A stretch of 49,063 bases of DNA, taken from NCBI GenBank assembly GCA_008933805.1, contig WBUH01000024.1, positions 1 to 49,063 of the forward strand, read 5' to 3'. The stretch is from Bacteroidota bacterium (lineage in GTDB: Bacteria > Bacteroidota > Bacteroidia > UBA8524). Below are positions 29,207-31,917 of the stretch, piece by piece. The notes under the pieces are model-generated. The model did no database searches, was not told the DNA's origin, and saw only the letters and a program-made list of their open reading frames with translations. Positions within the stretch are counted from its first letter, which is position 1; every line of letters starts with the position of its first letter. The position numbers were made by a program, and so were the translations under genes.

Positions 29207-31285
29207 CTAAGTAGAATGTGCTAATAAACTGCTCACGATACCATCGGGAACAGGTTGGTAGCTGTTGAAAGTTATGGTGGCTGATGCTCGCCCTGATGTT
29301 AGGGTTCTAAGTGCCGTAACATACTCAAACAACTCTGCCAAGGGAACTAACGCTACAATACGTTGTCCGTCACCATTCAAATCCAACGATTTGATAAGTC
29401 CGCGACGGCGGTTTAAATCGCCCGTAACAGCACCGGTGAACTCATCGGGAGTGATTACTTCAACTTCCATTACAGGTTCTAAAAGACCGGGGTTAGAAAG
29501 TTTAGCAGCATCTCTGAAACCGATGTGGGCAGCTTCTTCAAAATCCTGTAAATGAGAGTCCTTTTCGTGTATCGAACCATCAAAAAGCCTCACTTTTAAA
29601 GATTGAAGCGGGTAACCTGCCAAAGAGCCTTTTTGCATTGCCTGCTCAAAGCCTTTTAGCACGTTTGGAATAAATTCACGCGGGATCACTCCGCCTTTTA
29701 TTTCATTCACAAACTCAAGTCCCTGCTGACCCTCACCACCGGGCAACAGTTCAAAGCTGATGTCGGCAAAGTTACCCGAACCTCCGTTTTGGCGTTTCAA
29801 AACAGTGCGGTGTATCACAGGTTTCCTCAAATACTCTTTGTAAGATATTTGTGGTTGTCCTTTCTTCACCTCAACTTTATACTCAGTTGCCAGTTTTTCA
29901 AGCACTACTTCCAAATGCAGTTCGCCCATTCCTTTCAAAATGGTTTGTCCAGTTGCAGTGTCTATCTCAACCGTAAGGGTTGGGTCTTCGTCGGTTAGGC
30001 GCGAAAGTGCCTCGCCCAATCGTGTACCGTCACCGGTAGTTTTTGGCTCAATGGCGTACCCAATCATAGGCTCAGGGAACTCCATTTTCTCAAGACTTAT
30101 TGAAATACCTTCGCCACAAAGTGTGTCGCCTGTTTTCACATCCTTGAGACCAATTATGGCACCAATATCACCCGTGTTTATTTGTTCAACACTTTCTGTC
30201 TTGGCCGACATCACCCGCATGATACGTGCTACGCGTACTTTTTTGCCCGTTCTGCTATTAATAAGCGTATCACCGGCTTTCAAAACACCGGTATATACCC
30301 GCACCATGGTTAACTTACCTACAAAGTCATCGGTAACAATCTTAAATGCAAGCCCAACAAAGGGAGCATTTTCAGAGGTTGTTAACTCAACAGGTGCATG
30401 GGTTTCGTTTTCATACACTTTTATAGTAGTTATATCAGCCGGAGAAGGTAAATACCTCACCACGGCATCAATAACAGGCTGGACGCCTTTGTTCTTAAAA
30501 GCCGAGCCACAAAGCACAGGGATAAGCTGCTGTTGTAAAGTTGCATTTTGCAGCGCAGTATGCAATTCACCCGTACTTATTTCCTGTTGTGCGAGGTATT
30601 TATTTAAAATACTTTCGTTTGTAAGACTCAGTTCTTCAAGTAATTGAGTGCGCCATGTAACTGCTTCTTGTAGCAATTGTTCAGGTATCTCGCTTTGGTA
30701 AAACGACTTACCATCATCACCGTCCCAAAATATGGCTTTCATCGCTATTAAGTCAATCACACCCGCAAAACTGTCTTCAGCACCAATGGGAAGCTGAACA
30801 GGGACAGCGTTTGTGTTTAAACGTTCCCGTATCTCATTCACCACTCGTAAAAAGTCAGCACCTTGTCGGTCCATTTTGTTCACCATTATAATGCGGGGAA
30901 CATTGTAACGGTTCGCCTGTCGCCAAACGGTTTCTGATTGGGGTTGCACACCTGATTTTGCGCAAAAAACAGCCACAGCACCATCAAGCACCCGCAACGA
31001 GCGTTCTACCTCGGCAGTAAAATCAACGTGGCCGGGCGTGTCTATAATGTTTATTTGGTAGTTCTCGCCGTCAAGTTTCCAATAAGTAGTAACTGCCGCC
31101 GATGATATGGTGATGCCCCGCTTGCCTTCCTGAGGGTCGGTATCCATTACCGTATTACCATCGTCAACATTGCCCATTCTATGGGTCAACCCTGTATAAT
31201 ACAGTGCTCTTTCGGTAAAAGTTGTCTTCCCTGCATCCACATGAGCCATAATCCCTATATTTCTTAATCTATTTATCGTTTTCAT
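29207..31285 (-). CDS. fusA: Elongation factor G (stand-alone, probable paralogue)
   Basis: A 692-residue EF-G with complete GTPase motifs: G1 [10 protein letters not shown]3 DTPGHVDF, G4 NKMD, and domains II-V ([24 protein letters not shown]). It moves tRNAs and mRNA through the ribosome. It differs from typical bacterial EF-G at switch I ([10 protein letters not shown] rather than QEQERGITI) and near the P-loop (KTTFTER instead of KTTTTER). It is not beside rpsL, rpsG or tuf, so it may be a second copy. A terminator hairpin with a T-run ends about 24 bases before its ATG, with no promoter box between, implying attenuation control. Confidence 0.92.
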
Positions 31286-31309: not shown

Positions 31310-31343
31310 AAAAAAAGCCCCTTGTTGCAGTAACGAGGGGCTT
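31310..31343 (-). terminator. Terminator/attenuator in the EF-G leader
   Basis: Stem AAGCCCCT (31315-31322) with AGGGGCTT (31336-31343), extended by GTT/AAC across one mismatch to a 5-base loop. On the minus strand the arm is followed by seven Ts. It lies just upstream of the EF-G start (31285). Because no TAnnTTTG lies between it and the ATG, EF-G transcripts must read through it. Confidence 0.75.
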
Positions 31344-31484
31344 ATAGCACAAAAACACTATTTCCACTACGCTACGTGTTGTATCGTTTATAAAGGGTTA
31401 TCAATGTTTTTATTACTAATGCCATTTGTGTTATAAATATTTGTGTATTGTTTAATTTAAAATACGGTGCAAGGGGAGGAAAAC

Positions 31485-31517
31485 AAAAAAGCCTTCACCG
31501 GTTCGGCGAAGGCTTTT
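31485..31517 (-). terminator. Intrinsic terminator of the small transcription unit
   Basis: Stem AAAAGCCTTC (31487-31496) with GAAGGCTTTT (31508-31517), plus inner CCG/CGG pairs closed by GTT, and six Ts on the minus strand. It lies 20 bases after the stop codon of the 44-codon ORF, completing a promoter-ORF-terminator unit of about 200 bases. Confidence 0.8.
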
Positions 31518-31536
31518 GTATAAAATAGTTTAACTA

Positions 31537-31671
31537 TTAATAGTAATAACCTTTGTATCCCGAACGTAGTTTTGCCTCCCCGTCTCTAATAAAGACGATA
31601 TGCGTTGCTGCAATCATTGCAGTAATAGCAGCATTGCAGGCAAGGGGTTGGCGATATGTACGCGTGTTCAT
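31537..31671 (-). CDS. 44-codon small ORF or structured RNA
   Basis: The minus strand reads ATG at 31671, 44 codons and TAA at 31537-31539. The peptide starts MNTRTYRQPLACNAAITAMI and ends GYKGYYY; no family is recognised. An exact -7 box (TACCTTTG, 31689-31696) lies 17 bases upstream, with TTG about 20 bases further up, and a strong terminator follows. The RNA can also fold: TTGCCT pairs with AGGCAA, enclosing TGCTGC/GCAGCA and CGTCT/AGACG hairpins. It may therefore be a non-coding RNA instead. The unit of transcription is better supported than the peptide. 31344-31484 holds no gene I can support. Confidence 0.42.
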   Translation of the reverse strand: MNTRTYRQPLACNAAITAMIAATHIVFIRDGEAKLRSGYKGYYY

Positions 31672-31688
31672 CACGGGTTTATTTTGTG

Positions 31689-31696
31689 CAAAGGTA
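31689..31696 (-). promoter_or_regulatory. Promoter TTG-N20-TACCTTTG of the small unit
   Basis: Exact TAnnTTTG on the minus strand with a TTG about 20 bases upstream, among the best promoter matches in the window. It drives transcription toward the 44-codon ORF and away from the tRNA-Pro gene. Confidence 0.55.
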
Positions 31697-31754
31697 ACGT
31701 CCCCATTTTATTATTTCAATATTTTTTGATTTAAGTTCACATTGGGCAAACAAT

Positions 31755-31774: not shown

Positions 31775-31848
31775 CGGGGTGTAGCGCAGTCTGGTAGCGT
31801 GCTTCGTTCGGGACGAAGAGGTCGTAGGTTCGAATCCTGTCACCCCGA
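31775..31848 (+). tRNA. tRNA-Pro (anticodon CGG)
   Basis: A 74-base cloverleaf. The acceptor CGGGGTG/CACCCCG has the C1-G72 type end typical of bacterial tRNA-Pro. The D-stem region is GCGCAGTCTGGTAGCGT, and the anticodon stem CTTCG/CGAAG holds loop TTCGGGA (anticodon CGG). The T arm contains GGTTCGAATCC, and the discriminator base is A. CCA is not encoded. Confidence 0.95.
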
Positions 31849-31917
31849 CTGTTTTAATTTACTACGTTTATATTCTTAAATACACAAAAGCATACTGTGG
31901 TTAATGGGTAATACAGT

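Follow-up and report, generated by a model that had tools for sequence, protein, structure and literature searches.

In Bacteroides thetaiotaomicron, intergenic short open reading frames (sORFs) and small RNAs (sRNAs) form short units with a sigma-ABfr promoter (TTTG/TAnnTTTG) and an intrinsic terminator (PMC7366714). The locus described here has the same make-up, but we found no sequence relation between the two and the unit in our window is spanned by an ORF. Bacteroides also encode a second elongation factor G (fusA2, EF-G2) outside the str operon (PMC6989115; NCBIfam NF058620), and the window likewise contains a second EF-G gene outside this operon. However, its product stays under the NF058620 cut-off for Bacteroides EF-G2 (457 bits, cut-off 1000), fits the canonical model TIGR00484 (915 bits), and shares 53% identity with the canonical EF-G of its own genome versus 31% with Bacteroides EF-G2. 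The arrangement, a short ORF and then terminators 5' of a gene for a translational GTPase, also recalls the leader-peptide attenuators known from ribosome-protection genes and their kin, but the locus in the window comes without a proven alternative structure and without relatives, and the parallel is no more than a resemblance. 6S-Flavo, SRP, and other Rfam RNAs are similar in size and have their own promoter and terminator, but the unit matched none of them at the gathering score. It is best seen as a candidate small-protein gene, missed by annotation and so far detected in no other genome; as such it is a fairly ordinary find.

The window, that is, the whole stretch of DNA analyzed, is a complete contig of 49,063 bp (G000:C24) from a Bacteroidota-type genome of 4.29 Mb in 40 contigs. 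The short unit lies between a tRNA gene on the plus strand and an EF-G-like gene on the minus strand. Promoter, ORF, a first terminator (T1), a second terminator-like hairpin (T2), and the EF-G gene follow one another in the same direction on the minus strand, with no further gene between them. The features are as follows.

31775-31849, plus strand: tRNA-Pro (CGG), divergent neighbor of the short unit
31689-31719, minus strand: Bacteroidota primary-sigma promoter, TTG (31719-31717), N20, TACCTTTG (31696-31689)
31537-31671, minus strand: 44-codon ORF MNTRTYRQPLACNAAITAMIAATHIVFIRDGEAKLRSGYKGYYY, ATG at 31671, TAA at 31539-31537; alternative start GTG at 31674 (45 codons)
31567-31574, plus strand: antisense -7 element TAGTTTTG, strong and promoter-like, within the small ORF, score 12.6
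31487-31517, minus strand: intrinsic terminator T1, 14-bp stem (7 G-C), loop of 3, U-rich tail at 31486-31477
31315-31343, minus strand: second terminator-like hairpin T2, AAGCCCCTCGTTACTGCAACAAGGGGCTT followed by a T-run
29207-31285, minus strand: EF-G-like gene, second copy, 692 aa

An earlier note on this DNA had described a short independent transcription unit between tRNA-Pro and an EF-G gene. Both flanking genes were confirmed, the EF-G gene being a lone second copy, and with promoter, ORF, and terminator in place the sequence gives good support to the proposed unit. A repeated element was rejected because the short unit and the EF-G leader each occur as a single copy in the genome. The G+C content of the ORF is 0.45, compared with 0.25-0.31 in the immediate flanks.

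The consensus of Bacteroidota primary-sigma promoters is TAnnTTTG, with TTTG at -33 (PMC7366714). We scored sites with a position-weight model trained on 57 sites upstream of this genome's own genes, and used a genome sample of 450 kb for promoter and terminator statistics. The promoter of the short unit had been called near-perfect, and TTG-N20-TACCTTTG is present with a score of 16.1, which ranks 7th among the 487 TANNTTTG sites of the sample and was reached by none of 63,000 randomly drawn positions. Sites with TANNTTTG cluster 0-30 nt 5' of gene ATGs in this genome. In 10 of 10 strict promoter matches preceding genes that encode 150 aa or more the ATG lies 4-23 nt past the motif, and the ATG of the small ORF, at 17 nt, falls inside this range. 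T1 corresponds to the strong terminator of the earlier note and has a folding energy of -21 kcal/mol. A perfect inverted repeat, AATAGTTTAACTATT, occupies positions 31524-31540 of the window between the ORF stop codon and T1. The locus could also be without function, as a chance combination of promoter, ORF, and terminator or as a remnant, and conservation was found nowhere we searched; however, promoter and terminator are both far above chance and stand in the correct order and spacing, and we regard this explanation as very improbable.

The 44-codon ORF of the earlier note is present. Its length alone is unremarkable, since an ORF of that length occurs somewhere in the six frames of 211 nt in 19% of shuffles, but its placement is notable: 1.15% of dinucleotide shuffles had a frame that opened with ATG within the first 25 nt and ran for 44 or more codons. 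Like a small-protein gene, the unit has its own promoter, the usual distance from promoter to start codon, and a stop codon ahead of the terminator. The start context lies at the 41st percentile among real starts and the 91st percentile among intergenic ATGs, which favors translation of the ORF; A-rich initiation without a Shine-Dalgarno site is normal in this phylum (PMC6847099). By codon usage the ORF frame scores best of the six, with +0.4 bits, about midway from the scores of real genes (8.2 ± 6.1) to those of spurious ORFs (-8.5 ± 6.1). Its G+C content by codon position is 0.48, 0.48, and 0.39, compared with 0.49, 0.36, and 0.43 in genes, and the usual dip at position 2 is absent.

The predicted peptide contains a 19-residue hydrophobic segment (residues 10-28) with basic ends on either side and a mean Kyte-Doolittle hydropathy of 1.89, matched by just 6.4% of 44-aa pieces from this genome's proteins. 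The tail is basic and aromatic, and Tyr accounts for four of the last six codons. The hydrophobic segment between basic ends suggests that the product would most likely be a single-helix, membrane-associated protein. A single-sequence AlphaFold model showed one helix (pLDDT 73), to which we give little weight because an antisense control frame was also helical.

Type I toxins are short hydrophobic peptides, as the 44-residue product would be. The peptide might thus be a membrane toxin that is held off by an antisense RNA starting near 31580 on the plus strand, from the promoter-like site TAGTTTTG; pairs with a similar layout have been proposed in B. thetaiotaomicron (PMC7366714). However, we estimate from the composition that the chance of one TANNTTTG site inside the ORF is roughly 0.07, and a search for a plus-strand terminator for the antisense RNA found none. 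The unit is also single copy and without a homologue, and PADLOC and PHROGs returned nothing. Hence, a type I toxin-antitoxin system seems improbable.

Our preferred reading, to which we give about an even chance on the sequence evidence, is that the unit is an unannotated, lineage-specific small-protein gene, possibly for a single-helix membrane protein. The promoter, the terminator, the placement of the ORF, and its start context are supported by sequence statistics, and from these and the peptide sequence we infer transcription, translation, and a membrane location of the product. The housekeeping sigma factor would start the mRNA about 5-7 nt past TACCTTTG, at about 31683, and the ribosome would initiate at the ATG at 31671 without a Shine-Dalgarno site and translate 44 residues. 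The mRNA would end at T1, and the product, given its hydrophobic residues 10-28, would most likely act as a single-helix, membrane-associated small protein. Against the small-protein reading we counted the mid-range codon score, the lack of a position-2 G+C dip, the lack of a homologue, and the base rate of RNA genes among such units, as well as the B. thetaiotaomicron map, in which just seven of 409 predicted sORFs have ribosome-profiling support (PMC7366714).

The base rate comes from the other short promoter-terminator units with a strong promoter in the 450-kb sample, which were tRNA-Ala, tRNA-Asp, the SRP RNA (Rfam RF04183), and one unknown, none of them a protein gene. The unknown unit of about 200 nt (L026:5791-6000, plus strand, contig G000:C3) has a strong promoter and a terminator, no long ORF, and no Rfam match, and is located 76 nt upstream of a gene for an RtcB-like RNA ligase. 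Sequence kinship between this unit and the one in the window was rejected, as the alignment score was within one standard deviation of shuffles. Since short units in this genome are often RNA genes, a trans-acting sRNA, non-coding and some 200 nt long, with its end at T1 and the ORF incidental, keeps weight as an explanation. Promoter-terminator units of such size are also the signature of intergenic sRNAs, of which B. thetaiotaomicron has 124, 49 of them with a terminator (PMC7366714). However, the placement and start context of the ORF argue against an sRNA, as do an unexceptional folding once the terminator is left out and the lack of an Rfam match, and we consider an sRNA unlikely.

The folding results also bear on the proposal in the earlier note that the RNA adopts a closed three-way structure. 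The base pairs named there exist, yet the fold barely beats chance once T1 is removed. The whole unit including the terminator folded with a z score of -3.5, mainly because of the terminator; the region without it had a z score of -1.5, with 7.7% of shuffles equally good, and did not fold beyond shuffles in the way expected of a structured RNA. A selected 87-nt piece reached a z score of -2.1, and the closing stem TTGCCT/AGGCAA had a pair probability of about 0.2. Known RNA families (6S-Flavo, SRP, tRNA, riboswitches) were rejected because the unit had no Rfam match at the gathering score, and what low-scoring matches there were (Thr_leader among them) owed their score to the terminator hairpin. 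The earlier note had left the product as either a small protein or a structured RNA. The ORF placement, start context, and best-of-six frame, together with the unexceptional folding and the empty Rfam search, lead us to lean, not strongly, to a translated ORF and away from a structured RNA.

We searched for relatives of the peptide in 60 related genomes, in two draws of 395 genomes (class and phylum), and in phages and plasmids, and found none. The best match among the hundreds of genomes had an E value of about 0.02; such matches were rejected as homologues because they are at chance level and lie mostly in larger or broken frames. The ORF and the unit had no match in Pfam, NCBIfam, PHROGs, PADLOC, or Rfam, and neither the DNA of the unit nor the whole arrangement recurred in the sampled genomes. 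A conserved position beside tRNA-Pro was rejected as well, as the 88%-identical tRNA-Pro(CGG) locus of a genome of the same family has neither the unit nor an EF-G gene nearby. Only four relatives from the family of this genome were sampled, and its genus is represented in the sampled set by this genome alone; the absence of conservation in our searches owes as much to sparse sampling as to any other cause.

The EF-G gene of the window is distinct from the canonical EF-G gene, which follows rpsG on contig C17, and all five GTPase motifs of its product are intact. Neither the two draws of 395 genomes (class and phylum) nor a contig scan with a divergent segment yielded a closer relative. The EF-G searches returned only canonical EF-Gs of the str operon (53-56% identity), and second-EF-G orthologues were therefore rejected as an anchor for comparison. 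This second EF-G copy just downstream, of a kind rarely seen, makes a regulatory role for the unit possible.

Since the promoter, ORF, T1, T2, and EF-G gene run in one direction without an intervening gene, attenuation is a serious rival explanation, one that the earlier note had not raised. The strong promoter would then be that of EF-G, and the 44-codon ORF would encode a leader peptide. T1 and T2 would stop most transcripts, and ribosomes slowed on the ORF, through EF-G shortage, starvation, or a translation inhibitor, would alter the folding of the leader and allow read-through into EF-G. The layout is that of an attenuator, with a leader transcript region and a terminator 5' of a co-directional gene. 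Only 29 nt separate T2, which the earlier note did not mention, from the start codon of EF-G, a leader position shared by few terminators of the 450-kb sample. An imperfect 12-nt inverted repeat, TTATAACACAAA/TTTGTGCTATAA (window 31340-31433), extends across the EF-G leader and is single copy in the genome. The best other candidate for an EF-G promoter scored 5.2, compared with 16.1; it ends at 31350 and is close to the median for genes, so that EF-G could also use this weak but ordinary promoter. Parts of the ORF region are able to base-pair with the 5' arm of either hairpin (P 0.03-0.075 vs shuffles for T1, P 0.007 for T2), in four tests without correction; these alternative pairings are somewhat above shuffles, become marginal after correction, and are suggestive only. 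5' UTRs with sORFs that resemble attenuator leader peptides are present in B. thetaiotaomicron (PMC7366714), but in Bacteroides the fusA2 promoter itself is the point of control, through the activator BT4338 (PMC6989115). Moreover, the arrangement was found in no relative, and, save for the four Tyr near its end, the peptide lacks a stretch of repeated regulatory codons. We consider attenuation of the second EF-G unlikely, on a par with the sRNA, and slightly less likely still in its full form, in which slowing of ribosomes on the leader ORF, acting through a leader peptide and two tandem terminators, turns on a lineage-specific spare EF-G.

If the ORF is translated, as in the small-protein reading, the unit adds one more short, lineage-restricted protein missed by annotation, with a promoter strong enough for the product to be abundant. 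If the unit instead controls the spare EF-G, it would show how this bacterium decides when a second elongation factor is used, and a true attenuator would mean that a paralogue of a translation factor is controlled by translation itself.
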